DNA from: a virus
Strand: one strand, 5' to 3'
Virus record (IMG/VR): IMGVR_UViG_3300020439_000003
Location: 45,555-109,554 of that record
DNA length: 64,000 nucleotides
The translations under genes were made by a program, and so were the position numbers. Shown here one piece after another: positions 14,434 to 32,092 of this stretch (position 1 is the stretch's first letter; the number at the start of each line of letters is the position of its first letter). The notes beneath the pieces were generated by a model that was not told the DNA's origin, ran no database searches, and was given only the letters and a program-made list of their open reading frames with translations.

Positions 14434-14454
14434 AGGTGCAGAGACCACTACTAT

Positions 14455-15162: not shown

Positions 15163-15691
15163 TGAGTGCAATCCTATATCCTGTGGTGGGTGATGATGAT
15201 GCATGTAATACATCACCTTTGAATACAACCATCTTGCCACGCTCAGGTGACACTCTCAACTGACATTGACGTTGAAATATACTCATCTCATCAGTGAAGA
15301 AGATAGTATCACCATCACTATCATTCACATAATATAATGCAGTGATGTGTTCTTCTTCAAAGTCTACATGTGGACAGTGATGTTCTAGTTTGTCAGGTAG
15401 TAGGCAACCAAGGCGAACGCGATAAACATCAGAAAAATCTTGACCAGCAGCATCAGCAATAATCCTCAAAGCAGATTCAAATAGATCGTAGTATTGTGAG
15501 ACAGGTTCATAGTCCATCACCACAACATGTGAGAATGAACTGTTATCAAACCTACCTTCATATGGTCGATACCCACCATCAGCAAACGTGGTCTCTTTAA
15601 CAAGATACCATGGGAACTGTTGTTGTGTTACAAGTCCCTCAATCTGATCCTGAATAATATCAGGCAATGGATAATCAGAACTCAATAACAT
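15128..15691 (-). CDS. P4H-like 2OG-Fe(II) dioxygenase (copy 1)
   Basis: 187 residues from ATG 15691. Iron and 2OG residues: H108-V-D110, H163 (VLHASSS) and R173 (GYRIALNV). Shares YYVNDSDGDTI with its paralogue at 13773-14270. The open frame continues upstream inside the JmjC gene but has no better start. Predicted to hydroxylate an unknown substrate together with its JmjC partner. Confidence 0.82.
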   Translation of the reverse strand: MLLSSDYPLPDIIQDQIEGLVTQQQFPWYLVKETTFADGGYRPYEGRFDNSSFSHVVVMDYEPVSQYYDLFESALRIIADAAGQDFSDVYRVRLGCLLPDKLEHHCPHVDFEEEHITALYYVNDSDGDTIFFTDEMSIFQRQCQLRVSPERGKMVVFKGDVLHASSSPTTGYRIALNVNFKPRVSQS

Positions 15692-16379
15692 ATTGCTTAC
15701 GGTCGCTGGGTACATCACGGGGATACATGCAAGGGATAGACATTGATAGACGCTTACCACCAGGGAATGGTTTGTGATACGTTCTAGCAGGGATGTACAT
15801 AACATCTCCCTCCTGTAATACTGTATCCAGAGCGATAGTTAGTTCCTGACCTGCCTTGTCTGGTAGATAAGGTTCGTCTGTCATTTCGATCAGACCACTA
15901 CATCTCTCCTCGTATACATTCCAGTGTGTTTCACCTTCAATCTGACAAATAAAGTTAGGTGGTAGATCCCAGTGAGCACCAAATGACTTGCTGCCCTCCT
16001 TAGCACTACCAAATATATGTGCGTCACAATTACAATCAAACATCGCTTCAATGTTCTCCAACAGATTATCTACTGCTGGATTGTAATGACCATACTGTTC
16101 AATGATAAATGTATGACCTTCATTGATTGCTTGGAATAGTTCTTCCTTGTGTGCCACACCTTGTTCATACCATACTTCAAATTTCTCAGGTAGCATCAAT
16201 CGACGACCCTCAAAGTTGAGGATCTGGGTTCTATAATACCATGGATTATTAAAACAGTGTGTGACTGTATCCCAGTTGACATACTGTGAGAGATTATCTA
16301 ATGCCTTACGCCATACCTTTGGTTTATCACCACACACAAACTCCTTAGGATTGAGGAATGGTAGTATCAATTTATTCAT
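15675..16379 (-). CDS. JmjC/cupin-type Fe(II)/2OG oxygenase (copy 1)
   Basis: 234 residues from ATG 16379. Ligands H136-W-D138 and H202 (PARTYHKP). Shared blocks with the copy at 14455: NFI.Q..GET.W.VY.ER, ELTIA.DT.L and GDV.Y.PAR.YH. The C-terminus ends in a short RKQYVIEF strand. Its stop-proximal end overlaps the P4H-like partner by 17 bases, the same arrangement as in the second cassette copy. Confidence 0.8.
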   Translation of the reverse strand: MNKLILPFLNPKEFVCGDKPKVWRKALDNLSQYVNWDTVTHCFNNPWYYRTQILNFEGRRLMLPEKFEVWYEQGVAHKEELFQAINEGHTFIIEQYGHYNPAVDNLLENIEAMFDCNCDAHIFGSAKEGSKSFGAHWDLPPNFICQIEGETHWNVYEERCSGLIEMTDEPYLPDKAGQELTIALDTVLQEGDVMYIPARTYHKPFPGGKRLSMSIPCMYPRDVPSDRKQYVIEF

Positions 16380-17037
16380 GTAAATCACCCTCAGATTGGT
16401 CAATAGAACAACCTGCTACATTGATACTAATAGCAATACGTTCACCTACTGCTGGTTGTGTGCGATGCTTCAACCATGATGGGAAGATGAAGTAATCAAA
16501 TGATTTTGAAGGTTGTGTGTTCCACTTCAAATCACTACCACAATGTGTTCCATCGTCAGAAATATCATAGTCAAATTCTAGTGGTGTCATGCGAAGAATA
16601 TCTTCCAGAGGATTCTTGAATTGAAGATGACCATGCTCTGGATCTTTCTGCAAGTGATAAACAATACTCACATGTGATTTACTACGTTGACCACTGATGT
16701 GACAATGTTCTCCTGTTGTATCACCATCGTTATGCAAATTTGCCCACATACTATCAATGTAGACATGCAAATCTCTCCTATAATTTAGTGTCCACTTCCA
16801 ATACTCATGAGCAGCAACCATCACTGGATGTAGCATCCAGTCAAACTCTTCATGGTCAAATAGTTCTTTACCACCTAACAATCCACCAGTAGACTTACCG
16901 TCTTCTAGTGCCCATGAACCACGAGTAGTTTTCGACCAGTATTCATCGTAGAGTAATCTCTTAGTTGCTTCTAACTGCTCGGGGGTTGGTTCTATGCTGC
17001 CACGACAGATAGGAGTATCAAATAGTCTGCTTAGCAT
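16372..17037 (-). CDS. 2OG-Fe(II) oxygenase-like protein (2OG-FeII_Oxy_5 type)
   Basis: 221 residues. N-terminus LFDTPICRGSIEPTPEQLEA. Core motifs: SMWANLHNDGDTTGEHCH (HxH), SIVYHLQKDPEHGHLQF, FDYFIFPSWLKHRTQP and ERIAISINVAG. Longer insertion between the first strand and the third His than its relatives. Overlaps both neighbours. Substrate unknown. Confidence 0.8.
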   Translation of the reverse strand: MLSRLFDTPICRGSIEPTPEQLEATKRLLYDEYWSKTTRGSWALEDGKSTGGLLGGKELFDHEEFDWMLHPVMVAAHEYWKWTLNYRRDLHVYIDSMWANLHNDGDTTGEHCHISGQRSKSHVSIVYHLQKDPEHGHLQFKNPLEDILRMTPLEFDYDISDDGTHCGSDLKWNTQPSKSFDYFIFPSWLKHRTQPAVGERIAISINVAGCSIDQSEGDLHE

Positions 17038-17695
17038 TCTTCCTAATAGTATTGTACAAGTTTTCCTTGTTTCTCACTGGTACGAAATTAAATGAGATAC
17101 TAATTCTATCATCCTCTGTCTGATTGTCTCGCACAGCATGAGGAACCCATGCAGGAAATAAGAATAGTCTACCAGCAAGTGGTGGATATTCATATGTAGT
17201 ATCAGTATGTGGCACTGCTGCGGTAGACATATCCTCAGCAATACCAAGAGAATGGATTAGATAACCCTCAGTATGATCCTTATAGAATACTAACTTACCA
17301 CACTCACCCTCTGGTACTTTGACATAAAAGACACCAGACATCACAGCACCAGGATGTACATGGACCTCGTTATATCCTCCATGTCCATTGATGTTCATCC
17401 AGACATTTGCATACTCAATATGTGACATCTCTGCCCCATATGTACCAAATGCTATCTCTGCATTCTTTTTAATAACATACAGCAGTTTCTTAAACTCATC
17501 ACCTTCAAGTGATTCGTCATTCAATATCTGCTCACCCAAATAATCGGGAGACTGATAGTTCAGTTCTCCACGATTACTACGGTATTGACCTTCATTATTG
17601 TTCGCAATATCGAGAACAATATCAGTCATTGCATTGACATCAATATCTAGATCAGTCCACCACACAGGCGTGGGGAAAATATAATCAAGATTCAT
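17018..17695 (-). CDS. 2OG-Fe(II) oxygenase-like protein (2OG-FeII_Oxy_5 type)
   Basis: 225 residues and the most canonical member of the set. Starts with YIFPTPVWWTDLDID; then NVWMNINGHGGYNEVHVHPG (HxH), SGVFYVKVPEGECGKLVF, GRLFLFPAWVPHAVRDN and DDRISISFNFVP. It follows the 159-residue coiled-coil protein with a shared base at the start-stop junction. Substrate unknown. Confidence 0.85.
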   Translation of the reverse strand: MNLDYIFPTPVWWTDLDIDVNAMTDIVLDIANNNEGQYRSNRGELNYQSPDYLGEQILNDESLEGDEFKKLLYVIKKNAEIAFGTYGAEMSHIEYANVWMNINGHGGYNEVHVHPGAVMSGVFYVKVPEGECGKLVFYKDHTEGYLIHSLGIAEDMSTAAVPHTDTTYEYPPLAGRLFLFPAWVPHAVRDNQTEDDRISISFNFVPVRNKENLYNTIRKNAKQTI

Positions 17696-18174
17696 TACTT
17701 AGTCTTATTCAGTTCTTCGTCAGTTGCTGCTTGATTGCTCTCCCAGTTACTAAACTTGGAGTAATCCTTACCTTTCTTACTGTAAGGAGAGTTGGTCTTA
17801 ACTTTGACCAACTTACGCTTCTCTTGGATCTCACTTTCAATCCAAGGTTCAGGATCAACACCCATGACAAACTGACGGTAGAGGTTAAGTGTTTCCAGTC
17901 CACCTTCCAGTTTCACAATCTCATCACGAAGTGCATTCATTTGAGTGAAGTCAACACGAGTCTCTTCTCTATCAAATGACATTGCACTCAATGCTTCTTG
18001 GAGTTTAGAATACTCATTGTATTTCTCACGATGTTGATACATCAGGTTACGCCAGAGATCATCAAAAGACTTGACTGCTTCCTTTGCAGATTCAACTTCT
18101 TCGATGAGTTCGGGCGGAAGGTCCACTTCAAGTGCTTCTTCTAGCACTTCTTGTGATACATTTTCCTCAGACAT
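17695..18174 (-). CDS. Coiled-coil-like protein, unknown
   Basis: 159 residues from ATG 18174, two bases after the halogenase stop (the frame is open up to 18237 inside the halogenase). Residues 20-95 are charged helices with heptad character; the C-terminus is polar and basic (KKGKDYSKFSNWESN). Similar short helical proteins beside tail-fibre genes can be attachment-site or assembly proteins, but that is only context. No known domain. Confidence 0.65.
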   Translation of the reverse strand: MSEENVSQEVLEEALEVDLPPELIEEVESAKEAVKSFDDLWRNLMYQHREKYNEYSKLQEALSAMSFDREETRVDFTQMNALRDEIVKLEGGLETLNLYRQFVMGVDPEPWIESEIQEKRKLVKVKTNSPYSKKGKDYSKFSNWESNQAATDEELNKTK

Positions 18175-18176
18175 AA

Positions 18177-19766
18177 TCATTCCTTGTAAATAGTGTTCTT
18201 TTGGAACTGGTAGGACGACGGTAAAGTCATACACCAATCATACATCTCTTTGTCCCATTCGTCAAACCTCAGTTCTGCTGTTAGTAGTTCTTCGGCATCG
18301 ACTCGCGGATCGAGACTGTTCTGTAACCTTTTCAGGGTCAACGTGTGATTATTTAGTGGGTTGAATCCCATGCCTGCTGCAATATACCTCAACCCATCAT
18401 TGTGTGCTGGATCACCAGCAAACTCATAGAGCACATGCTTCTCGGATGCATATCTCATGAAGAGATTATCAAGGGCACCAGTAGAGAAATCATAATCTAT
18501 TTCATTAGAAACATACTGCCAGTATTCTGTCTCTCTATTAGAGAAAGCATAATGGGCAGCAATGAAGTTTTTGAATCCTTCAATCTCTAAATCGTTGACT
18601 ATATTTAGCATGTCAACTTCTACCCTAGGAACGAATCCTTGACGCCCTGAGAGGTTATTACATAGGCGTATGATCTGTTCATGGGTAACAAGCAGTCCCG
18701 TCGCTTCTAGGGGTTCTACGAAGCAGTTAGAGAGACCAACTGCACATACATTCTTGACCCATGATTTCTCATGTTTACCATTTCTAAATGGTACATGGTT
18801 GAATGATGCTTTATCAGCACGTTCTTTACCTCTGGTCTTAATCAGATAGTTATACAGTTGATGTTCTGCCTCACCCTTAGTTGCAAACCCAGATGAGTAT
18901 ACATATCCAACACCAGATCTCTCCCACAGTGGTACATCCCACACCCAACCATTATCAATGGCAGTGCAATTTGTACTGTTAGTAATCTCTGTCTCCTTAT
19001 CTACATGTGGCATGTGACATGTCACAGCACTATCATTAAGAAGGCAACCACCACCATCTTTGTGGAATGAAACAAAATCTTGCTTCATGAATCCACCAAG
19101 TAAGAGTGATTTGAATCCAGTACAATCAATATACAGATCATACTCAAACTCACGATCATCGTCAGTGATTAGTTTAGTAATATATCCTTGACTGTCTTTC
19201 TCACAACGAGCAATGTTACCTTGATGATAATCAAGACCCAAAGGTAGACACCAGTTGTTCTTCAACCACTGACCAAACTTAATGGCATCCATGTGGTATG
19301 CAGTGTCTGCTTCAAAGTGAAACCTAGGGTCATCAGTTAGTTTATTATGATGCGCCAGTTGTCCCACTAAGTTGTGAAGACGTGCGAATGATTGTCTTGG
19401 ATACTTCTCTGGATTCTGTAAATTAAGAGAGAACCATGACATCCACCCATGTGGACATAGTTCTAGTCTCTCTTGTGCAGATCCAAAAGGATAATCCCAG
19501 GTCTCTCCTTCCTTATAGAAATCATTGAACCTGATATTAGTTTTATATGTGGATCCAGTATCTTTCATCCACATATGATCTTCTAAACCAAGAATGGCAA
19601 AGAAGTCATTGATCTGACCCAAAGTAGATTCACCTACACCAATAACAGGGTAGTCTGGTGATTCAATCAGTGAAGTTTTAATATGTGGGCAAAGTTTCAA
19701 AAGGGCGGCAGCGGTCATCCAACCAGCAGTGCCGCCCCCCACGATGAGGACATTACGAATTTGCAT
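18177..19766 (-). CDS. Flavin-dependent tryptophan-halogenase homologue
   Basis: 529 residues, the usual length. FAD-binding GGGTAG (10-15) follows VLIV; GVGEST at 43-48. Lys75 in TYKTNIRF aligns with the catalytic Lys of tryptophan halogenases. The halogenase-diagnostic WxWxIP motif is present as W274-V-W276-D-V-P. DCTGF at 214-218 fits the FAD site. These enzymes use FADH2, O2 and halide to make HOCl or HOBr held by the Lys, then halogenate an indole. No flavin reductase is seen nearby, so it would rely on host FADH2. It lies between adhesin-type genes and a block of hydroxylases, which hints at a Trp residue on a protein as substrate; this is inference. Confidence 0.9.
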   Translation of the reverse strand: MQIRNVLIVGGGTAGWMTAAALLKLCPHIKTSLIESPDYPVIGVGESTLGQINDFFAILGLEDHMWMKDTGSTYKTNIRFNDFYKEGETWDYPFGSAQERLELCPHGWMSWFSLNLQNPEKYPRQSFARLHNLVGQLAHHNKLTDDPRFHFEADTAYHMDAIKFGQWLKNNWCLPLGLDYHQGNIARCEKDSQGYITKLITDDDREFEYDLYIDCTGFKSLLLGGFMKQDFVSFHKDGGGCLLNDSAVTCHMPHVDKETEITNSTNCTAIDNGWVWDVPLWERSGVGYVYSSGFATKGEAEHQLYNYLIKTRGKERADKASFNHVPFRNGKHEKSWVKNVCAVGLSNCFVEPLEATGLLVTHEQIIRLCNNLSGRQGFVPRVEVDMLNIVNDLEIEGFKNFIAAHYAFSNRETEYWQYVSNEIDYDFSTGALDNLFMRYASEKHVLYEFAGDPAHNDGLRYIAAGMGFNPLNNHTLTLKRLQNSLDPRVDAEELLTAELRFDEWDKEMYDWCMTLPSSYQFQKNTIYKE

Positions 19767-19769
19767 AAA

Positions 19770-20378
19770 TTAGTCTTCTCTGACTGTCTCAGGATGTTCA
19801 GTTACTGCTTCACCTAGTTCGGGGTTAGTATCTACTGCTTCGGCAGATGCAGGGGCAGTAGTAACAGGTTGATCTGCCATAGTTTCAGCGGCAGGTGCAT
19901 CATGAAGATCAGGGTTGTATGCACCAACCTTGAACTCTTTCTGTGCTTCCACAGGAATCTCAAACTCAGTCAACCATGAAGGAATCTCTTCACTATGAGG
20001 GAAGGGTTCGTTAGGCAGAACTTTGTTACCTTCTTCATCATATTCAACCTCAGGGAGTTCAGTCTTCACACCAGCAATGTGCTTGAAGAATTCACCACCC
20101 TTAGCAGCATCGCCGAAGAGTCCTGCTTCAATATCTTTATACAACTTGGACAGTTGCATACCAGGATCACCATATGCAACGATACGGAGAGTCTCAGGAT
20201 CATGGAATTCAAAGTCAGGAATCCACTCACCAAGTTCAAGTTTCCAGTCGATAGTACCTTCGTCAGGAATATCGATCCATCTCAAACCAGAACCAGGTCC
20301 AGTGTAGACTTCAAACTCTTCACCTTCGTTGATGATGTCTGTAATAAATCCGTCTGCGCGGACAAGTGCTCTTTTCAT
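19770..20378 (-). CDS. Unknown protein with acidic Ala/Glu/Pro tail
   Basis: 202 residues. Residues 1-60 begin KRALVRADGFITDIINEGEEFEVYTGPG and include RWIDIPDEGTIDWKLELGEW, a beta-rich start of the sort seen in tail-fibre-associated phage proteins. The last 45 residues are low-complexity (Ala, Thr, Glu, Pro). Lies three bases before the halogenase gene and directly after the glycine-rich adhesin, so it could be a fibre assembly factor or a fibre part. No catalytic motif. Confidence 0.65.
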   Translation of the reverse strand: MKRALVRADGFITDIINEGEEFEVYTGPGSGLRWIDIPDEGTIDWKLELGEWIPDFEFHDPETLRIVAYGDPGMQLSKLYKDIEAGLFGDAAKGGEFFKHIAGVKTELPEVEYDEEGNKVLPNEPFPHSEEIPSWLTEFEIPVEAQKEFKVGAYNPDLHDAPAAETMADQPVTTAPASAEAVDTNPELGEAVTEHPETVRED

Positions 20379-20384
20379 TGTTCT

Positions 20385-21185
20385 TTAATCGAATTCGTAA
20401 ACGACAACAATACCCTGACGACCGTCGCCGCCACGTTCTCTGTTTCTAGCAGAAGAACCGCCAGCACCGTAAGCAGCATGACCTCTATGGCGCTGCGCCC
20501 ACTGTTGCTGTCTGTGAGAAGTTGGTGAAGAACCACCCCAGAAGGAGTGTCCACCATGACCGAGACCAGGAGGATTACGGTGACCCTGTGAAGAACCACC
20601 ATAGATTCTTACAGCACCCTGAGAGGGGTTACCACCAGTAGATCCATCATGTTGTTGTCTACGGTTGGCACCCTGTCCACCACCAGATGAACAGTAGTTA
20701 CCGAAACTTGATGTACCACCATTGCCACCACGTTGAGAATAGTTAGTACCACCACCTGCACCACCCACGGTCACAGAGATAGAGTTAATGTTCTGAACGT
20801 TGACAATCTGCTCAGTGTGTGCGCCAGCAGCACCAGATTCTCCATAACCTGATCCACCGCCACCACCAGCAGTACACATAACCCAGATACGTTTAATACC
20901 TGTGGGTTTGTTCCAAGTGGAGTTACTATTGTACACTGAGATAGACTTAGGTCCACCACCAGTTTGTACAGTTGCCCACGACATCGATGTGCCGTTGGTA
21001 GAGAGATACTTACCTGATTGTCCCGAGATAGATGGGATAACCTGAGAAGATGAACCACCGATAGTTCCATTGATTACGATGTTACTAACGGTAAGAGTAC
21101 CGTTCACAGTAATAGAACCAGAACTGAGGTTAAGTCCACCAGAACCAGATAGGTCTCTAATTGAAGATACTTTAAGGGTACTCAT
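20385..21185 (-). CDS. Glycine-rich tail adhesin-like protein, copy 1
   Basis: 266 residues. N-terminal 70 residues are repetitive beta (SSGSITVNGTLTVSNIVING), followed by an STWNKPTGIKRIWVMCTAGGGGGSGYG block. The C-terminal half is extremely rich in Gly, Ser, Asn, Arg and Gln. It resembles the Gly-rich receptor-binding proteins (gp38-type) of T-even phages. A near-identical paralogue precedes it. A perfect late promoter (TATAAATA, 21217-21210) and an AAGGAG ribosome-binding site precede the ATG. Predicted virion tip adhesin. Confidence 0.8.
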   Translation of the reverse strand: MSTLKVSSIRDLSGSGGLNLSSGSITVNGTLTVSNIVINGTIGGSSSQVIPSISGQSGKYLSTNGTSMSWATVQTGGGPKSISVYNSNSTWNKPTGIKRIWVMCTAGGGGGSGYGESGAAGAHTEQIVNVQNINSISVTVGGAGGGTNYSQRGGNGGTSSFGNYCSSGGGQGANRRQQHDGSTGGNPSQGAVRIYGGSSQGHRNPPGLGHGGHSFWGGSSPTSHRQQQWAQRHRGHAAYGAGGSSARNRERGGDGRQGIVVVYEFD

Positions 21186-21209
21186 TGATTACTAGGTCTC
21201 CTTCGTTGT

Positions 21210-21217
21210 TATTTATA
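21210..21217 (-). promoter_or_regulatory. T4-type late promoter TATAAATA
   Basis: Perfect octamer on the minus strand 25 bases upstream of the ATG at 21185; it overlaps the last codons of the upstream paralogue at 21218-22021. AAGGAG lies between it and the start. Confidence 0.75.
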
Positions 21218-22021
21218 TCAAATGAATTCGTAGACTACGATGATGCCTTGGCGTCCATCACCACCACGTTCTCTGTTACGACCTGAGGAACCACCAGCAC
21301 CATAGGCAGCATGTCCTCTGTGACGTTGTGCCCATTGCTGCTGTCTGTGTGCAGTTGGAGATGCACCGCCCCAGAATGATCCACCACCATGTCCTAGACC
21401 TGGGGGATTTCTGTGACCTTGACTTGACCCTCCATAAATTCTAACAGAACCTTGTGATGGGTTCCCGCCTGTGGATCCATCGTGCTGCTGTCTGCGATTT
21501 GCGCCTTGACCGCCGCCTGATGAGCAGTAGTTACCAAATGATGACGTTCCACCATTGCCAGCGCGACCACTGTAATTAACACCACCACCACCGCCACCAA
21601 CTGTAACACTAATCGAGTTGATATTTGTGACATCTACAAAAGACTCCGTGTGAGCACCAGCAGCACCTGATTCACCATAACCTGAACCACCACCGCCACC
21701 AGCAGTACATTTAACCCAGATACGCTTAACTCCACTAGGTTTGTTCCAAGTGGAGTTACTATTGTATACCGAAATACTATTAGGAAGACCTAAGTTACCA
21801 CCACCTTGTTGCCAAGAGATAGTAGAACCATTGGTGTAAAGGAACTTACCGCCTTGACCCGACTGTGATGGAATAATATATCCAGAGGATCCAGTTACGT
21901 TTCCGTTAATAACAATATGAGTTACATTGAGAGTCCCGTTCGCAGTAATAGAACCACCAGAGAAGGACATACCCCCTTGGTTACCTAGATCTTTTACTTG
22001 TGCTACATTTAGTCGAGTCAT
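21218..22021 (-). CDS. Glycine-rich tail adhesin-like protein, copy 2
   Basis: 267 residues, same length and layout as copy 1. Blocks such as NSTWNKP, the Gly-rich AAGAHTE region, SSFGNYCSSGGGQGANRRQQ and GRQGI.VVYEF are shared nearly unchanged. Differences concentrate in residues 1-90 and in a few loop positions. This is a recent tandem duplication. The ATG overlaps the stop of the 247-residue oxygenase gene. Confidence 0.8.
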   Translation of the reverse strand: MTRLNVAQVKDLGNQGGMSFSGGSITANGTLNVTHIVINGNVTGSSGYIIPSQSGQGGKFLYTNGSTISWQQGGGNLGLPNSISVYNSNSTWNKPSGVKRIWVKCTAGGGGGSGYGESGAAGAHTESFVDVTNINSISVTVGGGGGGVNYSGRAGNGGTSSFGNYCSSGGGQGANRRQQHDGSTGGNPSQGSVRIYGGSSQGHRNPPGLGHGGGSFWGGASPTAHRQQQWAQRHRGHAAYGAGGSSGRNRERGGDGRQGIIVVYEFI

Positions 22022-22761
22022 TGTTGTTGATCTAACTCTTTTCTTTTATTTAGTTGTTCAGCACCTACATGTTGAAGTGGAACAACCCTGAACGCATACT
22101 TACCATTATCTAGGATCTCGGGAATAAAGTTCATACTAATAGTAGTACGTCCCTTCCAGAGATTGAAGACACCTTCATAACCATGCACAGTCTCTGCTGA
22201 CCATATAAACAGACAACCTTCTTGTGGTTTGGTCTGGTGAACTTCCTTTGTATATTTATTACCCTCGTTTGCTATACGAGGTGATCTCATCTGTTGAATA
22301 ACTGGATGTCCCTCTTTCTGAGGTACACGATAGAAATCCAAAGGTGAATGAATCTTGGGATCAAAGTCAACAAAATATGTACCAACGATGATACAGTTGT
22401 TGTGATTGTGTTTGATCTGCCAACAATGCTCTTTCGAGCAATGATTCAACCAACAGTCAGTAATCAATAGATTAGATCCATTGAGTTCATATTCTAACAC
22501 ATCAGTGAAGTAGTCAGTCGCTGCGTCTAACAGAAACTTCTCAAAGTCTTTGAATCGATCATCATAACGTAAAAGATTACTATTAGAGATATTAAAGTAA
22601 TGGTGCAGATTCTCCTCTGCTACATTACTATTCCACTCAGGATGCCCTGGTTGTATCTCATCAATGATCTTATGACATACTTCCTTGATAACCTCATTGT
22701 CGCCATCATAATAATACTTCCCAAAGACTTGTGGGAAGTATTCTTCAAGTTCACGTTTCAT
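22018..22761 (-). CDS. 2OG-Fe(II) oxygenase-like protein (2OG-FeII_Oxy_5 type)
   Basis: 247 residues, embedded between two tail genes with 4-base overlaps on both sides. Motifs: ITDCWLNHCSKEHCWQIKHN, HNH triplet (HxH), IVGTYFVDFDPK, EGCLFIWSAETVHGYE and GRTTISMNF. The iron-site order is as in its relatives. Its position between a fibre and a glycine-rich adhesin makes a virion protein a reasonable substrate candidate. Confidence 0.8.
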   Translation of the reverse strand: MKRELEEYFPQVFGKYYYDGDNEVIKEVCHKIIDEIQPGHPEWNSNVAEENLHHYFNISNSNLLRYDDRFKDFEKFLLDAATDYFTDVLEYELNGSNLLITDCWLNHCSKEHCWQIKHNHNNCIIVGTYFVDFDPKIHSPLDFYRVPQKEGHPVIQQMRSPRIANEGNKYTKEVHQTKPQEGCLFIWSAETVHGYEGVFNLWKGRTTISMNFIPEILDNGKYAFRVVPLQHVGAEQLNKRKELDQQQ

Positions 22762-24011
22762 CTATTATGTTGATTAGTTGATAACAAATAGTAACTTCCG
22801 ATACTGTATGCACCACCGTCATTGAATCCGATGTTGCTAAGGTTTTTCAAGTTGTTTCTTGATCCACCGTACATATTTAGATAACCGCTGTCAGAGTAGT
22901 CACCGTTAGGTTCAGAGTGGGTGTTGTCTCTCAACCACCACTTTCCACCATCAGGTACACGCCACTCACCAACATTGTTACCACCATAGTCAGATGACCT
23001 CATAATACGAGAGGTGTAGTTACCTCCACCACCGTTCTTGAAGACAGCGCCACACCCAACAAAGAAGTTAGGCCAGTTACCTCCGTTGACGATTGTAGCA
23101 TAGTTAGCAGCAGCACGCCATGCATACTTGGAGCGACCATAGAACATATCAAGACCAAAGTCAACACCAGAGTGATACTGACCATTGTAATTCACACTAC
23201 GACCACCACCATTGATGGGATAGAAGTCATAACCACCACCATCCTCTGTGGTATCAACATACATTTGCAGTGCGTTGGGCATACTGTGTGACTGGATCCA
23301 GTATGTTCCATTGCTATTGCAGTGTCCATATTCTACACCAAACTTACCAGATTCAAGTGGAGAACTAGGTGAACTACCATTACCAAAGTTTAGTTCAGAT
23401 GCATTAACAATCTCTAACTTAGCATGGGAGATATAATATGCTTCGTCGCCTCTACTTTGGTTCAGTCCAGTATAGTGTTCAATACTAATACTATTAGAGG
23501 TATGTTGTCTCCAACCAGATGAAAACTTAATATACCCCATTGATGAGTCATTAGAACCGTTCCATGGTTCATAACTATAATCAACGTTGAAACGTGCTAA
23601 CAATACAGGAGAAGTTTCAGACTGGTTATGGTCACAGTTCATCTCTCTGAATCTGTTCTCATTCCAGATCTTACGCCAGTTAGCAATACGATTGCCATCA
23701 ATGTTGACGTATTGATACTCATTATCCCATGAGTCAACATGGTGAATAACACACGAATACTTAATGTATTGGTGTGATGGTAATCCACTCAGGTTGAGTG
23801 TATAGGATCTAGGAGATCCACCCCAACCGTGCCAATATCCTGTGCTAGAAAACTCAGGACGTGCGTACATACTGGAATACTCACTACGATTCCAGTTAGA
23901 GAGATAGTTACGACAGTCGTTTCCTTCGTCGTACCAAACTTCTCGTTGAGCAAAACCTCCGCCACCACCGCCGCCGATAGTAGCAATTTTAGCGAGTCCA
24001 ATACTAGGCAT
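22758..24011 (-). CDS. Tail-fibre-like protein with fibrinogen-like C-terminal region
   Basis: 417 residues. A Gly-rich N-terminus (IGGGGGGG) is followed by a beta-rich section with HHVDSWDNEYQYVNIDG and RFNVDYSYEPWNGSND. Residues about 225-275 read GTYWIQ, then ALQMYVDTTEDGGGYDFY, which matches the start of fibrinogen-related domains (YWI...YCDMxTDGGGW). The remaining part is rich in Trp, Gly and Asn. Such domains bind sugars in eukaryotes. I infer a receptor-binding fibre. Overlaps the oxygenase gene by four bases. Confidence 0.7.
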   Translation of the reverse strand: MPSIGLAKIATIGGGGGGGFAQREVWYDEGNDCRNYLSNWNRSEYSSMYARPEFSSTGYWHGWGGSPRSYTLNLSGLPSHQYIKYSCVIHHVDSWDNEYQYVNIDGNRIANWRKIWNENRFREMNCDHNQSETSPVLLARFNVDYSYEPWNGSNDSSMGYIKFSSGWRQHTSNSISIEHYTGLNQSRGDEAYYISHAKLEIVNASELNFGNGSSPSSPLESGKFGVEYGHCNSNGTYWIQSHSMPNALQMYVDTTEDGGGYDFYPINGGGRSVNYNGQYHSGVDFGLDMFYGRSKYAWRAAANYATIVNGGNWPNFFVGCGAVFKNGGGGNYTSRIMRSSDYGGNNVGEWRVPDGGKWWLRDNTHSEPNGDYSDSGYLNMYGGSRNNLKNLSNIGFNDGGAYSIGSYYLLSTNQHNR

Positions 24012-24013
24012 AA

Positions 24014-24880
24014 TTAGTCGTTATCTTCAAATCCTTGTGGGTTCAAGAACACTCTCCATGTAGCACCATCTAGGTAGAAGAAGAAGTTCAAGAGATCATA
24101 TCCATTACCAGGCGAGTATCCACCGTTTAATGTAGCAGTCTGACCGTTGATTTGTACACCATTGAGGTTACCAGACGTAGCAGTTGCTTGTCTAATTAGA
24201 ACCTGTGCAACATACATAAAACCAGCAATGTTAGGGACATTCTGGAAATTCAATGTAAAGTTGTTAGTATATGTAGTGGGATTTTGAGTTTCAAAGATTT
24301 GTGCCTGTGAATGATCCAAAGCAACTGTACTTGACAGTGCGAAAGAAATCATTCTTTCCTTGGTTTGACCAAACTCAAAGGTCGAACCAGCAACCATTCT
24401 CAGATGGTTGTTAACAGCAGCGTAGTTGAAATATCTATATGCTGAGAGATCTTCGTCAACACCAATCAGTGTCCACGTTGCATTATTCTCAATAGTAACA
24501 GTACGACCGTTAGCAATAGTAATAGGAGCAGCAGAGAAACCGTTGCTAAACTCTATACCATTGTTAGCACTTGGACCAATAGTTAAGTTTTCATTGATAG
24601 TAGTACCGTTAGTTCTGATAATAGAATCCTCACCAACAGATGGTCCACCACCACCAACATCGTCCCAACCAGGAGAACCAGGACCGTTGACATCAGGGAG
24701 ATAACCCTGAATCATTTTCTCAGTTTCGTTATATACAATCGTACCGAGAGCAACAGTGCCTAGTGCATTGATTTCAGTCTGGTTGAGATTAGGCAAGTTG
24801 ATCTGCTCTGTGACAGTCAGGGCGGTGATGATCGCCCTTGTCGCATCGCTAATCTGATTACCTATAATTTTTGTGGACAT
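24014..24880 (-). CDS. Tail-fibre-like structural protein
   Basis: 288 residues. Starts with a helical-turn segment (DATRAIITALTVTEQINLPNL). IVYNETEKMIQGYLPDVNG matches a motif common in phage fibre tips and trimeric adhesins (a Tyr/Asn-based strand). The C-terminal part is beta. It precedes the fibrinogen-like protein in transcription order. Exact role unknown. Confidence 0.7.
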   Translation of the reverse strand: MSTKIIGNQISDATRAIITALTVTEQINLPNLNQTEINALGTVALGTIVYNETEKMIQGYLPDVNGPGSPGWDDVGGGGPSVGEDSIIRTNGTTINENLTIGPSANNGIEFSNGFSAAPITIANGRTVTIENNATWTLIGVDEDLSAYRYFNYAAVNNHLRMVAGSTFEFGQTKERMISFALSSTVALDHSQAQIFETQNPTTYTNNFTLNFQNVPNIAGFMYVAQVLIRQATATSGNLNGVQINGQTATLNGGYSPGNGYDLLNFFFYLDGATWRVFLNPQGFEDND

Positions 24881-24900
24881 TAGATTCTCTTGCTAATTGT

Positions 24901-27900
24901 TTAGATAACAAGTTCACGAATTTGAATCACGTCACCTGTGGCAGGAATAGTCGCGCCACCAATAGAGAAGTCAACAGCATTACCAGTTACGGTGTAGTCA
25001 ACACCAGGGACTTGACATACACCATTCAAGAATACAAGTACAGAGTATGCAGTATGACCAGGAGAGATTGCAAAGGTAACAGTAGAACCGTTGCCATTGT
25101 AAGTGATACCATTGTTACCACTACTTAAACCTGTCGCTAATCTATATTTATCTGCACAACCATACTTTCCTGATACGTCAATGTCACCATTAAAGTAGGT
25201 GTTACCACTAACCTTCAATCGGTTAGAGGCATCAGGTGCCATACCAATACCATAATTAGTGACACCAGAATAGCGTTGGGATGTAATCGGAGCAGTATCA
25301 CTCAGACCCATCTTATACCATGTACCAGCATCATATACCCAACCAAGTGATTGACCAGGGGTCCAATCAATGTTATAGCAGATGTCTCCACTGTTAAATG
25401 CAAGACCAGCATCAAGATCAGGGAGTCCAGCAACTTCTTCTGCGAGGAAAGTCTGTTTCAGAACAGTACCATCATCGTTAGAATAAGTAAACTTCAACGA
25501 CTGGATCTCATCCTGTGATGTCAGTTTCTTCTGCATGGTCACAGGACCAGAGAATACTGACTCCAACTGGTTAGATGCACCACCAATCACGGTGAGTTTA
25601 TCAGTCAGCACCAACTCAGAGAACGTCTCAATAGTTGTACCTTCCTCACCCAACACATTCAACTGTGCAATATCTTCGTTAGTGATCTGACCCGTAACAG
25701 GGTTAATCACCTGGTTACCCACGAAGAGTTCACCATCACTGTTCACACCAGAGTAGTATGCAACACCTGCTGCTTCTTTGAGTGACTGTGATAGTCTAAC
25801 CTGTTCAGGTTTGAGCACTTCCACCTGGGTAGATGGGAATGCAGTTGAATAGTTACCAGGACCGAAACCAAGATACTCAAACGTGTGACCAGATGCTCTA
25901 AGAATAGAGTATCTTCTCAGTTCGATTGAGAGAGGAGCAACAGAGTTATCAGGGTTAAGTTGGAGAGGAATCTTTCTCTCTTCCTCATCACCCAGACGTG
26001 CAGTCACAACAATACCAGTCAATGTGTTCGTGGTAGTAGTGTAACCTAGGTTGTTCTCAGTTTCTTGTAGGAAGAACTGTGCTGTCTCCTTAGTAATAGA
26101 CAACTGAGTGTCTTCATTGGGAGTAGGAGTTGCACCATCAGTAGTTCTAACCAGACCCAGAGTCTCGTTATCTGCCACAGATACAGATGCAGCGGGGTCA
26201 GCAACAGGATTGTCTCTGTCAAATGCAGGGTAGATGTCTACTGTCTGCTGTGAGAATTCAAAGTCATTGAAGTTCTGTGCAGCAGGAGATACAGATGCAG
26301 AAAGCATCGTGAGATAGTAGATACCATCAGCAACACCACGCTCAAATGTTTGGAACGTCTCTACATCATAGATGTAGTATGTCTTACTATATGATGGTGA
26401 GTTAGTTTCAGACGATCTTGGTTGCATAACGAAACCAGTGATCGGAGGACGAGGAACAGGGAATGCATCCTTGTCCAATACATATCTGAAACGATAGGTT
26501 CTGTCATTCAAGTCACGAGCATCAGGGATACGACGGATGAACGTAGTAGGTGTAAATCCGAGGTTCTGATACAGCGAGTTCGCTTGAAGTGTGGTGTAGA
26601 TAGTGTTAGCAGCACTGTCTACTTGCAGATACCACTGACTACGATTACTATCCCATTTCAGTGGGTTGTCATCATCACCTGCTCTTGTACCAGTAACGGT
26701 AGGACCAGAGGGTGAAATGTTTGCGTAGTGAGTAGTTGGGTCGGACGCGCCAGACGCGACGAGTGAAACGTAGATCTTATCAGGAGTATTGACATCATCG
26801 CGTCTTGCGCCAATAGTATAACCCTGGATCTTACTGGGCGGTCTACCTGCTTCGGAAGTATATCCATACAGATAGAGTCTAGAAGCATCTGCTTCTGCCT
26901 TTGTAGTTGTAATATCAATAGTCACCCAGTTAATGGAGATCTCTTCTACATCTGATAGAGACTTGGGTGGGATGATGTGAGTAATTTGCCCTGCTTTGTC
27001 CTTGGTAAATGACGCAGCTTTGAACCCTTTGGATCGTAGGGATGTGTTACCGAAGTTTGAGTTAGAGTTCGTGATAGAGAGGTCACCACCACTGTCGGAG
27101 AAGAAGTGGTCACCGAATCCCACGGCGAACACTGACACAACCTGGATAAAAGAGTCATTGGATGCTTTAATATGAACGTGTCGCCATCCACGTCTATACT
27201 CTGCTAGACCGTTGATGTGAGCACCTGAACCTGCCGCTTGTGGTTCATATTGTCCAGTCGATTGGTTATATACAACGAATGCACGGTCATCCTTTTGTAG
27301 GGAGATACCCGTGAACTGTGCAACCACCATCGATTTGAAACCAGTTGCCTGGGAACCATCGGCGTGCATACCATTGATACCCCATACAGAACGTAGGGAG
27401 CAGTTGAACACATATGGTGAGGCAGAGTCAACGGTATCAATCTCAACCTTCACGAGGATGTTTGAACCAATAGCATTACCGCTAGGTTCAGATGACATTT
27501 GATAGGTGAATTGGTTACCCTGTGCTGAGGTTACCAAGAACGATCCATTATAGAGTAGTTGATCCTGCTCAGTAGGACCAGTAACGCCAGATATATTAAC
27601 AGCGACACCCACGGAGAATCCGTGATTCTTCGGGTTGCCAAGTTCATCCACCGTAAATGCCGTGGCAGTTTGTCCATTACGGATAATCTGAGATACAGCA
27701 AATTCGTCAGAAATAGGACCAACGATCCTGTTTTCTTCGATTCTTGCCTGCAACTGGTCTTGTGCAACAACGCCAGAAGAGTCAGGAATAGTAGCGTATG
27801 CTTTCGAGATCTTCTGATAGTAGAGACTCAGATCTTCGGGGTTAGCATACTCAAAGCAAGTAATCTTGTGGTGAGAGAAGTTAGGTGCAATAGTAGCGAT

Positions 27901-28479
27901 GTCATCACCACGATAATATACACCGTTGTTGTCCCCATCAAAGAAGGACATCTGCCAGAAATAGCAACCACCAGTCAGTCTAAAAATCGCAGAAGGACCA
28001 GGCTCATTGACAGCAGTAATACCGAGACTACCCTGTACTGTGGGATAAGGGACGTATTTTGGAATGATTTTGGTTCTACGAAGGTCCGAACCAACAACAG
28101 AGACACCACGAGGGCAAATAATACCACCGCGAGTTGAATTAAATTTATAAAGAACATTACTACTACTCGTTAGATCGAAGTTAGTATTAGCGTCAAACGG
28201 TTGGACATCATTATAGTCCGCAACCCCTGGTCTGTTATCGAGAACATACTCAGAGGGATACAGATAGATTGAAAATGCGTCGAATTCGTCATTACTCAGA
28301 CCAACACGATAGGAGAATCGTGCCACTTCAAGGAATGCTCTCTGCAACGTCTTAAATGGACGCAACGCAGAGTTACCCCTATTGTCATATGCATCCGATG
28401 CATCAAAGTCGTCAGGGTTGACGTAGATAATACGTCCTGTCCTCGACGTAATGATATTTTTAAGACGAGTAAGTGCCAT
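24901..28479 (-). CDS. Large virion structural protein with beta-helix-like repeats
   Basis: 1192 residues. Begins IITSRTGRIIYVNPDDFDASDAYDN, followed by ALRPFKTLQRAFLEVARFS, the pattern of right-handed beta-helix (pectate-lyase-like) phage proteins. Later sections contain repeated strand-turn sequences and a C-terminal GDIDVSGKYG..YRLATGL plus a final beta domain. Conserved, usually as a tail-fibre or baseplate-proximal protein, in cyanomyoviruses. A late-promoter variant and an AGAGGA ribosome-binding site precede the start. Confidence 0.82.
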   Translation of the reverse strand: MALTRLKNIITSRTGRIIYVNPDDFDASDAYDNRGNSALRPFKTLQRAFLEVARFSYRVGLSNDEFDAFSIYLYPSEYVLDNRPGVADYNDVQPFDANTNFDLTSSSNVLYKFNSTRGGIICPRGVSVVGSDLRRTKIIPKYVPYPTVQGSLGITAVNEPGPSAIFRLTGGCYFWQMSFFDGDNNGVYYRGDDIATIAPNFSHHKITCFEYANPEDLSLYYQKISKAYATIPDSSGVVAQDQLQARIEENRIVGPISDEFAVSQIIRNGQTATAFTVDELGNPKNHGFSVGVAVNISGVTGPTEQDQLLYNGSFLVTSAQGNQFTYQMSSEPSGNAIGSNILVKVEIDTVDSASPYVFNCSLRSVWGINGMHADGSQATGFKSMVVAQFTGISLQKDDRAFVVYNQSTGQYEPQAAGSGAHINGLAEYRRGWRHVHIKASNDSFIQVVSVFAVGFGDHFFSDSGGDLSITNSNSNFGNTSLRSKGFKAASFTKDKAGQITHIIPPKSLSDVEEISINWVTIDITTTKAEADASRLYLYGYTSEAGRPPSKIQGYTIGARRDDVNTPDKIYVSLVASGASDPTTHYANISPSGPTVTGTRAGDDDNPLKWDSNRSQWYLQVDSAANTIYTTLQANSLYQNLGFTPTTFIRRIPDARDLNDRTYRFRYVLDKDAFPVPRPPITGFVMQPRSSETNSPSYSKTYYIYDVETFQTFERGVADGIYYLTMLSASVSPAAQNFNDFEFSQQTVDIYPAFDRDNPVADPAASVSVADNETLGLVRTTDGATPTPNEDTQLSITKETAQFFLQETENNLGYTTTTNTLTGIVVTARLGDEEERKIPLQLNPDNSVAPLSIELRRYSILRASGHTFEYLGFGPGNYSTAFPSTQVEVLKPEQVRLSQSLKEAAGVAYYSGVNSDGELFVGNQVINPVTGQITNEDIAQLNVLGEEGTTIETFSELVLTDKLTVIGGASNQLESVFSGPVTMQKKLTSQDEIQSLKFTYSNDDGTVLKQTFLAEEVAGLPDLDAGLAFNSGDICYNIDWTPGQSLGWVYDAGTWYKMGLSDTAPITSQRYSGVTNYGIGMAPDASNRLKVSGNTYFNGDIDVSGKYGCADKYRLATGLSSGNNGITYNGNGSTVTFAISPGHTAYSVLVFLNGVCQVPGVDYTVTGNAVDFSIGGATIPATGDVIQIRELVI

Positions 28480-28503
28480 TTACTTGGGTTCCTCTTACCT
28501 ATG

Positions 28504-28511
28504 TATTTATT
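28504..28511 (-). promoter_or_regulatory. Late-promoter-like AATAAATA
   Basis: Minus-strand AATAAATA, 25 bases before the ATG at 28479, overlapping the stop region of the gene at 28510-30720. One base from the T4 consensus. Confidence 0.6.
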
Positions 28512-30720
28512 ATGGTGTCGCGCCGCCACCGCCAGAATCAGCGGCTTTGGTGTTAACGACCACCGCGAAATCATCAGAAACTGATTCAAATCCAGTGACG
28601 TTGTATGCAATATCACCAGCAGAAGAATATACCAAGATGTTCTGACCAGGACCAACCACAATGCCAGTAGTTCTGTCTACTGAATTTGCAGCGATTGCCT
28701 TGTCATAAGCAATATAATCTTCGGCGTTAGTATATGTTTCAGCAGTTGCACCTGCCTTATCACCTGTACCAATACCATTGATGTCAAAAGTGAGGTTAGC
28801 AGCGCCACCACCACCAAGGACAGCATCAGTTGCAGTTAGAGTTTCACCATCAACATAATCTTTACCACCATTGACCAGAGTTACAGTAGCAGCACCAGAT
28901 CCATCTACTACAATAGAAACAGTACAACCAGATCCAGTGCCACCAGTAGGAGATACACTGTAAGTACCAGCAGAGCGAGATGCATCGGCAGCGCCAACAC
29001 TATCAAAAGCAAGAATCTTACCAGCAACTACCTCCGCCATGTAACGATTCTCGTTAGCACGAGTCGGAGTGTCATAGAAAGTATCACCAACTGCGAAAGC
29101 AGGAGATCCAATATCCAGAGAGATCTTCAACACGTTGCGTGCAGGATCCCAGTCATGGACATATCCATACTTACCAGGTGTTACACCATTGTTTTGAACA
29201 GTGTAAGTAACACCACCAAGGTCAAAAGTATCAGCAGCAGCGAAAGTCTCACCTGCTACCTTATAGATATAAATTTCTTCGTACTCAGGATTGTTGGCAA
29301 TACTAATAGCATGACCAAACTGAGCATTACCATCCTCAGTGTTAGCAACTGCGGGTTCAGCGTAGGTGTTAAGTGACAGAGGAGTTGCCTCATCAATCAC
29401 AATTTCCAAATAACCATTAGATCCAGCAGTACCTACCTTGGTAACACCAGTAGTATATTCAACACCAGTCAGCGTTTGGGTTCCATCGACTTCTTCCGAA
29501 AGGCGAAGTGGATGACCAGTATTACTACTATCAGATTGAATATAACGGTAAGTCCGTTCGTTATCAAATCCAGCGGCAAGCGGAAACTCATAAGTTCCTG
29601 TGCTAGATCCCTCAGCAATGATAAATTTATCACGGTTTTCAACAGGGGTAGAACCCTGTGAGAAGTTTGCAGGTACAGTAGCATTAGAAGTACCACCTGT
29701 CAAGGTCTCACCCTCAGTCAGGAAGTTCAAATAATAGTCACCAGCATCAGTCAACTGAGTAACAGCAGAACCATCGGTGTGGTCAACAGCAGAAGTACCA
29801 TACACACCACGGATCACACCCAGATCGTTACCAGCAACAGACTCAACTTGAAGGAGTTCGTTGCCAATTCTGATGAAAGATCCTTCAAGGAATCCAGTTG
29901 CATCAGTCAGAGTCAAGGTAGCATCAGCAGCAGCGTACGTTGCACCTTCGTTAATGGTAGATGCAGTAGCAGAGTCGATGAAAGACTTAACATACTCACC
30001 AGCAGGAATAGCAGATGCCGTCGTACCATACACACCACGAGTAACAGTCAGTGTGTTGTTAGTAGTGTTAATACCACCAACGTTGATAGAAAGAATCTCA
30101 GTACCAGTATCAGTCGGAGCGTCACTTCTCATCAAGAGAGTATTCTCAGCAAGACCAGTGTTACGAGATACCTTAACACTTGTAGCACCAGATGCTACGT
30201 CTGCCATGGCAAAAGTCAGACCACCCGTGGTGTTATCAAACGCACGAACAGTAGCAGTCAGACCAGAAGTACCGCCAGTAATAGTCTCACCTGCCACCAA
30301 CAAACCAATAAGGTTATCTACGTTGGTCTCAGTCGTGAGAAGTTTCTCAACTTTAACGTATCTCATCACGGTAGCAGTGTCCTTGAATACGTCAAGGAGT
30401 TTTGCAGTTGCACCGCTAGTCGATACAATATCAGCACCAGGAGTTGCATCAGCAAATGCAATACCAGGAGTGACTTTCAACTTGTAAGTTGAAATTGGAT
30501 TACCTTTTGTGAATTCTAAGTTATTCGTGGTTGCACCTTCATCACCATTCATGGTGAGAATTTGGTCGTAATCACGAATTGCAGCACGGTAGGTAACTCC
30601 GCTACCACTAGCATTGGTGGCAGTCAGGACCGTGGATGCAGTGTTATCGATGTTGCATCGATACAGTGATGTATTTGTAGTTGCCGCTGGTTTTGCAGCG
30701 GCGAGTCTTCCTGCTGTCAT
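28510..30720 (-). CDS. Large virion structural protein
   Basis: 736 residues with strong Thr/Ala/Gly/Asp bias and no hydrophobic segment. Repeated LLVAGETITGGTSGLTATV and FLTEGETLTGGTSNATV units and VTRGVYGTTA / VIRGVYGTSA pairs indicate internal repeats of an immunoglobulin-like or beta-roll type. I recall long proteins of this style as virion components of cyanomyoviruses. Lies between two other tail genes with tight spacing. Function unknown. Confidence 0.75.
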   Translation of the reverse strand: MTAGRLAAAKPAATTNTSLYRCNIDNTASTVLTATNASGSGVTYRAAIRDYDQILTMNGDEGATTNNLEFTKGNPISTYKLKVTPGIAFADATPGADIVSTSGATAKLLDVFKDTATVMRYVKVEKLLTTETNVDNLIGLLVAGETITGGTSGLTATVRAFDNTTGGLTFAMADVASGATSVKVSRNTGLAENTLLMRSDAPTDTGTEILSINVGGINTTNNTLTVTRGVYGTTASAIPAGEYVKSFIDSATASTINEGATYAAADATLTLTDATGFLEGSFIRIGNELLQVESVAGNDLGVIRGVYGTSAVDHTDGSAVTQLTDAGDYYLNFLTEGETLTGGTSNATVPANFSQGSTPVENRDKFIIAEGSSTGTYEFPLAAGFDNERTYRYIQSDSSNTGHPLRLSEEVDGTQTLTGVEYTTGVTKVGTAGSNGYLEIVIDEATPLSLNTYAEPAVANTEDGNAQFGHAISIANNPEYEEIYIYKVAGETFAAADTFDLGGVTYTVQNNGVTPGKYGYVHDWDPARNVLKISLDIGSPAFAVGDTFYDTPTRANENRYMAEVVAGKILAFDSVGAADASRSAGTYSVSPTGGTGSGCTVSIVVDGSGAATVTLVNGGKDYVDGETLTATDAVLGGGGAANLTFDINGIGTGDKAGATAETYTNAEDYIAYDKAIAANSVDRTTGIVVGPGQNILVYSSAGDIAYNVTGFESVSDDFAVVVNTKAADSGGGGATP

Positions 30721-30727
30721 TTGTTAA

Positions 30728-32062
30728 TTACCATCCTGCCTGGAAAAATGTTTGGAGTCGGAGTCTACCCCCGAAGGTTGGTGCCGCGAGAGGACCACCG
30801 AAACTAACACCCACCGCGTCGATGTTGTTAGTGGAGAGAAGCGTTGCGTCGCCATCAGGGAACTGAATTTGTACAGAACCAGTGATGTTCGTGGTGTCAA
30901 TGTTGATAATACCGTTGACATTATCAGGGTTATTGATCGCCACATACTCCAACGTCTTATAAGCAAGCGTTTGAGTTGCTCGCTCTGCAACCAAGACATT
31001 TGGATCCGTACCATTATTTAGAGGGGCAGTAACACTGCCGCCTGGGAAACTGAATACGAGGTTATTGTTAGTTGGGATGTTCTCCATCTCCAACGTAACC
31101 TTCTTACTATTATCGTCTGTATCCTGGAAGATAGCACCTTCGTAGGTTTTGTTCGTCAGGATTTGTGTAGACGCTTCACCAACAACTTTGACGTTCAAGT
31201 CAGGGAACGTAACAGTTCTATCCTGAGTCAGTTCTGATTGGTCGAAGATAACATAACGAGTTGGATCGTTCTCATCATTAGAAGGAGTATTAGAGAACGT
31301 GGGGTTAACCATGTTCTTATTATATACATCCTGCTCAGTAACGTCATCCAAGATAGTAGACTGAGTAATGGCGGCACCGAAATCGGGCAGTCTGTATGTA
31401 TGCAGACCAGGTGCATCCCATGCGTCAGTCTCAAACTTTGCGATCTTTGCAGCGTTAGTAGAACCAGTAATACTCAGATCACTATCCTTAATAATGATCG
31501 TCTTATTAGTGATAGTCTGGTTCGTATCAGTAGCAAGAAAGGTGGTCGTAGTGTTCGCACCCAAGTTAGGGAAGTCGAAACGCTTCGTGCCACCTGCTGT
31601 TGATACAGTACCAACGTTGAAAAATACTCTCTTGCCAGGGTTCTGATCGTCCTCAAAGAACAGCGTGTTGTCGGTAAAGATTGTAGTACCGTCAACCGTA
31701 AAGTAACCACTACCCTGCGGAGTGATCTCTACGTTAGCATTTGCCGATGCAGTATCAATAGCACGGATTTCCAGAGTGGAGGATCCATCCGAGTTTGCAT
31801 TCCGACTATTATATAATGCTGCCGTACCAAATGTGATACCAATTTCATTTACATTGGATTGGTACAAACCAGTGTCACGGTCCAAATTGAAAGCCATACC
31901 TGGGGCGGTCTGACTTCCTGCCGATACTGATCGAAAGAGTTGATTAACTCTTGCCTTCCTGTTGGGGATGAGTGGGTCAGAAATGACAATAGGAAGAACT
32001 GCTTCTCCCGTTACCAGGTCGTCGCCAACAGTTTGAAGTTGTGATATTCTTTTAGTTCCCAC
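30728..32062 (-). CDS. Virion structural protein
   Basis: 444 residues starting at GTG 32062. Starts MGTKRISQLQ, then a DLVTGEAVLPIV strand. There are several TNKTI / LTNKTY / LAYKTL repeats (about residues 188, 300 and 370), each near a FPD or FPGG strand. This fits a repeated fibre-like fold. A perfect late promoter lies 31 bases upstream. Probably a fibre or neck/baseplate part. Confidence 0.75.
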   Translation of the reverse strand: MGTKRISQLQTVGDDLVTGEAVLPIVISDPLIPNRKARVNQLFRSVSAGSQTAPGMAFNLDRDTGLYQSNVNEIGITFGTAALYNSRNANSDGSSTLEIRAIDTASANANVEITPQGSGYFTVDGTTIFTDNTLFFEDDQNPGKRVFFNVGTVSTAGGTKRFDFPNLGANTTTTFLATDTNQTITNKTIIIKDSDLSITGSTNAAKIAKFETDAWDAPGLHTYRLPDFGAAITQSTILDDVTEQDVYNKNMVNPTFSNTPSNDENDPTRYVIFDQSELTQDRTVTFPDLNVKVVGEASTQILTNKTYEGAIFQDTDDNSKKVTLEMENIPTNNNLVFSFPGGSVTAPLNNGTDPNVLVAERATQTLAYKTLEYVAINNPDNVNGIINIDTTNITGSVQIQFPDGDATLLSTNNIDAVGVSFGGPLAAPTFGGRLRLQTFFQAGW

Positions 32063-32092
32063 TACACTCTCACGGGCGCTGTTGTTCCAAGT

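Follow-up and report, generated by a model that had tools for sequence, protein, structure and literature searches.

A 417-aa protein encoded in the tail-fiber operon of a T4-like cyanophage is, in our preferred reading (probability of about 0.6), a two-module adhesin of the tail-fiber apparatus, and probably one that binds a receptor. By this reading, a short glycine-rich N terminus would lead into a predicted beta-sandwich resembling carbohydrate-binding modules (CBMs; N module), followed by a C module in which a short cap, homologous to the start of fibrinogen-related domains, precedes a head whose predicted fold resembles that of C-type lectins. The gene lies in the window, i.e., the whole 64,000-nucleotide stretch of DNA that was analyzed (positions 45,555 to 109,554 of the IMG/VR virus record IMGVR_UViG_3300020439_000003), and its features and neighbors are listed in Table 1.

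Table 1. Position of the candidate adhesin, its modules and motifs, and the adjoining genes in the window
Feature	Position	Strand	Family or basis
Tail fiber protein, 1192 aa	24901..28479	-	phrog_529
288-aa protein, probable fiber component, between fiber and adhesin	24014..24880	-	phrog_29506
Candidate modular adhesin, 417 aa	22758..24011	-	PHROG 15727, "virion structural protein"
N module, aa ~20-203 (DSWDNE, DYSYEPWNG, DEAYYISH)	23403..23954	-	predicted carbohydrate-module-like beta-sandwich, alignment A4
Fibrinogen-related (GGGWT-type) cap, aa ~204-263	23223..23402	-	profile and structure comparison
Predicted C-type-lectin-like head, aa 264-417	22761..23222	-	model, VIA-align, cysteine covariation, cap-less relatives
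EPNGDY motif, aa 367-372	22896..22913	-	place of the C-type-lectin EPN motif
FND motif, aa 396-398	22818..22826	-	place of the C-type-lectin WND motif
2OG-Fe(II) oxygenase	22018..22761	-	phrog_81, PF13759
Two paralogous glycine-rich fiber-tip/assembly proteins, downstream of insertion	20385..22021	-	PF21722, phrog_863

A conserved gene of the tail-fiber operon

The open reading frame starts with ATG, and in its product HHVDSWDNEYQYVNIDG begins at about residue 90 and the block GTYWIQ...ALQMYVDTTEDGGGYDFY spans about residues 235 to 265. We regard it as a real, conserved gene because it has a full-length match in P-RSM6 (CPXG_00189; 73% identity), relatives at 33 IMG/VR loci, and a dN below dS. 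The last was found in both modules against L002 and L005 (dN, 0.055 to 0.293; dS, 0.445 to 5.0, with values near 2 and above being saturated), i.e., in these comparisons both halves of the protein are under purifying selection. The P-RSM6 protein shares its architecture with the window protein over the full length, as well as its operon, but its annotation, like that of PHROG 15727, is that of a virion structural protein only, without fold or function. As a single query, the 417-aa protein recovered no Pfam match at an E value of ≤1 and no fibrinogen relative in the PDB, where the sole row was UvrA (E = 0.18). Its domain is present in a single copy in the whole 109,554-base virus record.

The sequence-only reading had called the product a tail-fiber-like cyanophage protein, and its gene does sit in a tail-fiber operon, where the order tail fiber, 288-aa protein, 417-aa protein, oxygenase, and two glycine-rich fiber-tip proteins is identical in P-RSM6. 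Downstream of the glycine-rich pair come one more gene and then a tryptophan halogenase (P-RSM6, two). The glycine-rich genes are tandem paralogs (20385 to 21185 and 21218 to 22021, minus strand) with 76% identity over 300 nt. The halogenase (18177 to 19766, minus strand) was recognized by PF04820 (E = 6.5e-93), and a run of open reading frames at 14455 to 17695 on the same strand looks by eye 2OG-Fe(II) oxygenase-like, as annotated in P-RSM6. In S-PM2 and S-CAM4, the gene for the head comes immediately after a giant tail-fiber gene; tail-fiber genes thus adjoin the 417-aa gene or its relative in four of four contexts (the window, P-RSM6, S-PM2, and S-CAM4). PHROG 15727 is nonetheless filed in the category "head and packaging."

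Two modules, with a cap and a predicted head

For the half of the protein around HHVDSWDNE, a beta-sandwich carbohydrate module had been proposed from sequence; the predicted fold bears this out, but no CBM family was matched. The N module, modeled from 16 sequences (alignment A4), was predicted with a pLDDT of 78 (<50 over the first 19 residues), and VIA-align comparisons placed it alongside CBM61, CBM27, and CBM22 (Z = 8.7 to 9.5 over 123 to 145 residues) at only 5 to 11% identity. Many beta-sandwich domains reached Z scores of 8 to 11, and the MAM domain of astacin (entry 8a28; Z = 11.1) and the ligand-binding domains of Eph receptors (about 9) scored as well as or better than the CBMs; hence, the comparison favors no single family or ligand. 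The N-module profile matched no PDB chain at an E value of ≤10, and among Pfam families neither a CBM nor any other rose above chance. The comparisons therefore support a carbohydrate-module-like beta-sandwich as a predicted fold, not as a family.

The C module begins with the cap, which is a homolog of the A subdomain, the start of fibrinogen-related domains. The cap carries the pattern of that subdomain (GxYxI ... DM..DGGGW), and in the predicted model 45 of its residues superpose on L-ficolin at 1.4 Å. A profile of 57 C-module sequences (hand-picked, mostly nonduplicate rows, with near-duplicate or truncated ones such as L008, L013, L015, L033, L045, and L066 left out) recovered FIBCD1 (E = 2e-7), intelectin-1 (2.8e-6), and ficolins (ficolin-2; about 1e-4) from the PDB, and a smaller profile of 17 sequences recovered FIBCD1 (4.4e-4) over two collinear stretches, the second of which is weak (GxWWxR....xxNGxY). 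With the bacterial-type profile A7, the intelectin alignment extends slightly past the cap. Pfam Fibrinogen_C (PF00147) matched 20 of the 57 members at an E value of ≤1 (best, 2.3e-6) but not the window protein, which is thus below the Pfam gathering score. The NCBIfam model NF040941 (GGGWT_bact, a fibrinogen-like YCDxxxxGGGW domain), which covers the cap with its 46 residues and is silent on the head, matched 56 of the 57 members at the same threshold (best E = 7e-17). The window protein scored 22.7 to 24.2 bits against it, under the curated cut-off of 30, which two other phage proteins exceeded (S-CAM4, 62 bits; L031, 42 bits).

The order of the block, likened in the sequence-only reading to the start of fibrinogen-related domains, is accordingly recovered by the profile hits to FIBCD1 and GGGWT_bact and by the superposition on the A subdomain; judged by these profiles, the likeness is more than chance and becomes visible only through the family. 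A search with fibrinogen_C and related models had been suggested as a check, and it came out divided, with the single protein below the thresholds and the family profiles matching. FIBCD1, ficolin-2, and human intelectin-1 resemble the cap in sequence, and fibrinogen domains do so also in 44 to 50 residues of structure, but their B and P subdomains are missing from the predicted head, and the window protein is without their canonical cysteines. As a separate observation, the S-CAM4 protein with 62 bits, gp159 (L036, 15760 to 16608), is a second GGGWT-capped protein of the same phage with a different continuation. Its relatives occur in 89 of 50,697 phage records, nearly all from cyanophages; among the 40 matches listed, they are named hypothetical, and one also overlaps a baseplate wedge gene.

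Beyond the cap, the predicted fold is another. The model of the C module (cap plus head; 214 residues) has a pLDDT of 94 and a pTM of 0.90. VIA-align compared it with 334 chains, and among the 50 listed, ficolin, fibrinogen, and procollagen-propeptide domains superposed over 44 to 57 residues (fibrinogen domains, 44 to 50). C-type lectins in the same list, including lithostathine, CEL-IV, CEL-I, CD23, langerin, LOX-1, mannose receptor, tetranectin, and others, superposed as nearly whole domains (121 to 138 residues at 3.2 to 4.8 Å), with Z scores of 5.9 to 6.7, a range (below 8) that may reflect a common arrangement only. Intelectin is absent from these 50 of 334 chains, an absence that does not argue for different folds. 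Foldseek searches of the PDB with the model matched the cap alone (best E = 0.05), and they mostly covered about 55 to 80 columns at a TM of about 0.2. Structure prediction, another check proposed with the original suggestion of a fibrinogen-like domain, thus upholds that suggestion for the first ~60 residues, where the cap superposes on fibrinogen domains over 44 to 50 residues, but not for the remainder of the head, which is predicted to be C-type-lectin-like. Since the head is not predicted to continue as a fibrinogen fold after those ~60 residues, the acetyl-sugar site of ficolins is not transferable to this protein. As far as the model holds, a whole fibrinogen fold (A, B, and P) was rejected for the C module, only 44 to 50 residues of the 214-residue model being superposable.

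Direct sequence proof of membership among the C-type lectins was also sought and set aside, as HMMER and hhalign were weak throughout. In Pfam searches with 35 head-only members, Lectin_C and Fibrinogen_C each matched one (E = 0.03 and 0.0026, respectively). Against bacterial Lectin_C, hhalign gave P values of 0.043 for alignment A6 and 0.07 for A7, neither significant. For heads lacking the cap, it aligned 93 columns at a P value of 0.0027, placing the two EPN motifs over each other and YND opposite WND. None of 150 column shuffles reached that score; the unrelated N-module alignment A4 also beat its 150, so this match is not decisive (with A2, the sister of A4, 14 of 150 shuffles reached the score).

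Because a Z score below 8 can reflect a common arrangement, we turned to cysteines and motifs. Across the alignment of 57 rows, cysteine columns (numbered by model position) covary as three pairs without a single unpaired row: C132 and C144 are both present in 18 rows and both absent from 39, C173 and C198 are present in 12 and absent from 45, and C79 and C207 are present in 13 and absent from 44. A phage row (L074) keeps C79/C207 without C173/C198, so these two pairs are separable; the window protein is without the paired cysteines. The EPNGDY motif is nearly invariant (E, P, N, G, D, and Y in 55, 57, 55, 57, 55, and 55 of the 57 rows), as is FND (N in 54 and D in 56 of 57), which has F instead of W. 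In C-type lectins, C1 is bonded to C4 and C2 to C3; the EPN motif precedes C2, and WND stands two residues ahead of C3. The head relatives present the order C79, EPN, C173, FNDGxC198, YLC207, as in C-type lectins; by this alignment, two of the three covarying pairs fall in C-type-lectin order. A relaxed form of the C-type-lectin signature (EPN..C..[WF]ND..C..C) is carried by 12 of the 13 rows in A7, the bacterial-type alignment, and by none of 26,000 residue shuffles; among bona fide Lectin_C rows from bacteria, 4 of 20 carry it, the others mostly being without a cysteine of the second pair.

Taken by its model, then, the head resembles a C-type-lectin-like fold with a weak sequence link. The predicted head is like the C-type lectin domains (PF00059) in overall arrangement, and its relatives are like them in the EPN and W/FND motifs and, to judge by covariation, probably in how the cysteines are paired and ordered, but it differs in having essentially no HMM match and a cap in front, and the phage members have lost most of the cysteines. 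In BFVD, whole-head structural matches were found to V5LRU8, G4YC55, and V5LNL2 (TM, 0.65 to 0.68) and a partial one to a membrane protein of Emiliania huxleyi virus 86 (Q4A2U1), so that the predicted head domain may perhaps occur in algal viruses too.

Separable modules and an adjoining oxygenase gene

The modules also occur apart. The N module is found without the C module in L019 to L022, L024, L096, and L097, the C module without the N module in S-CAM4, S-PM2, and many contigs, and both side by side as two genes in L009. In a tree of the 57 C-module rows, the eight fused rows group together as a single clade (support, 100/100), nested in a 19-row viral clade that is also supported at 100/100. 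In an alignment of full-length, head-only, and N-only rows (A3), the N-only rows were clearly misaligned (18 to 22% identity); hence, the two modules were modeled apart, and their relative placement lies outside the models.

Cap and head, in turn, are separable modules as far as these sequences tell. Heads without a cap occur in four viral contigs (L171 to L174; open frames of 209, 1061, 353, and 1066 codons), whose profile matches that of the head at 6e-19, and in myxobacterial-type genomes the matches (23 in G001, 20 in G003, 18 in G008, and 26 in G009) are mostly to the cap alone, on other proteins. In two of the four contigs, the cap-less head sits inside proteins of >1000 aa. Two bacterial observations may be added: one of the matches in G003 (L112) has a C-terminal stretch of 274 aa that, inspected by eye, resembles an entire bacterial intelectin, and an open frame from a bacterium, 2644 codons long (L086; G002:C952), holds seven or more capped heads in tandem.

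The head and the 2OG-Fe(II) oxygenase are present or absent as a unit. The oxygenase lies downstream of the head in seven of the eight fused contigs (the eighth, L008, breaks off within the gene) and in 13 of 13 more contigs from the same group (L009, L010 to L018, L026, L045, and L054), in one of which (L026) it is split across two reading frames; five of the matched contigs, together with the window, were input to the oxygenase profile and match by construction. It is not adjacent in seven of seven N-only contigs (L024 is cut off too early to judge), one of which, L019, has a weak oxygenase match (E = 2.8e-9) about 4 kb from the N-module gene. Nor did it turn up at 20 head-only viral loci that are more distantly related (several of these contigs stop soon after the head gene). 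The N-only contig L020 is syntenic with the window (identity of 89.9% for the fiber, 71.5% for the 288-aa protein, 52.6% for the N module, and 85.4% and 88.3% for the two glycine-rich proteins), and there head and oxygenase are missing together. The head, apparently inserted along with the oxygenase, therefore looks like a swapped-in cassette, although loss from the L020 lineage may account for the difference as well as gain in that of the window. In the window, the stop of the adhesin gene overlaps the start of the oxygenase gene (ATGA), and the oxygenase stop overlaps the next start likewise. We entertained the idea that the pair forms one functional cassette, exchanged jointly, in which the enzyme, probably cotranslated, would hydroxylate the head or the fiber and thereby let the phage set its own receptor specificity. 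Such oxygenases are common in these operons, so adjacency alone establishes no functional link, and we hold this idea to be improbable.

A probable adhesin and its alternatives

From operon position and annotation, we infer that the protein is part of the virion; it would also bind glycans and probably contribute to the choice of host. The most likely ligands of the two domains would be glycans on the outer surface of cyanobacteria, and the conserved EPNGDY/FND face of the predicted head would be a probable contact or metal site; exchange of the head would let other host strains be recognized. Of the other roles considered, that of a decoration or capsid-associated structural protein is unlikely, yet less so than the rest; it accords with the "head and packaging" filing of PHROG 15727 as a virion structural protein and with the same RefSeq name for the P-RSM6 and S-PM2 proteins, but the tail-fiber neighbors in all four contexts speak against it, and a locus at which domains are swapped is in keeping with receptor binding. 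We give little credence to a part in fiber assembly, as factor or chaperone, with the lectin folds being incidental. The adjoining glycine-rich proteins are indeed filed under tail fiber assembly, but this protein has two lectin-type modules with motifs conserved family-wide, and the syntenic relative in L020 does without the head.

That the C-terminal half is instead a complete, divergent fibrinogen-related lectin, binding acetyl sugars as ficolins do, is similarly doubtful: the homology of the cap, the weak collinear second match to FIBCD1, and the Fibrinogen_C hit of one head-only member would agree with it, but few residues superpose in a high-confidence model, the Foldseek alignments mostly cover about 55 to 80 columns at a TM of about 0.2, and the same head is found without a cap. 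Targets of diversity-generating retroelements include some phage fiber proteins with a C-type-lectin fold (the FGS case is described in PMC7824862), and a C-type-lectin-like C-terminal head on a fiber-operon protein would suit such a target. This is nevertheless a very improbable account of the 417-aa protein, as the 109,554-base record holds no reverse transcriptase (it is a fragment, and an element could lie outside) and positions 14000 to 33000 hold no template/variable repeat.

Fibrinogen-like proteins of phages have been listed before. Fibrinogen C-terminal domain proteins are entered in BFVD for P-SSM4 and PaBG, and two papers list fibrinogen-like coiled coil proteins on marine phage islands (PMC3909814) and mention a fibrinogen protein in roseophages (PMC12629253), respectively. 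In another paper, orthologs of detected proteins are marked in Fig. 1 (PMC3037559). A study of lamprey LSSL proposes that intelectins derive from a protein of a Pseudomonas phage that contains a fibrinogen-related domain (PMC9682848); the head behind the cap is here predicted to be C-type-lectin-like and not intelectin-like. Searches of the open literature, outside of which most subscription papers lie, yielded no description of this protein or of a C-type-lectin-like head that carries a fibrinogen cap.

A cap joined to a different head, if true, would explain why phage genes can look fibrinogen-like at the start and then like nothing known, and it would bear on the origin of intelectins and related animal lectins. 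As a modular adhesin, the protein offers marine virology a swappable host-range candidate for cyanophages of the P-RSM6, S-CAM4, and S-PM2 types, where its present annotation is only that of a virion structural protein.
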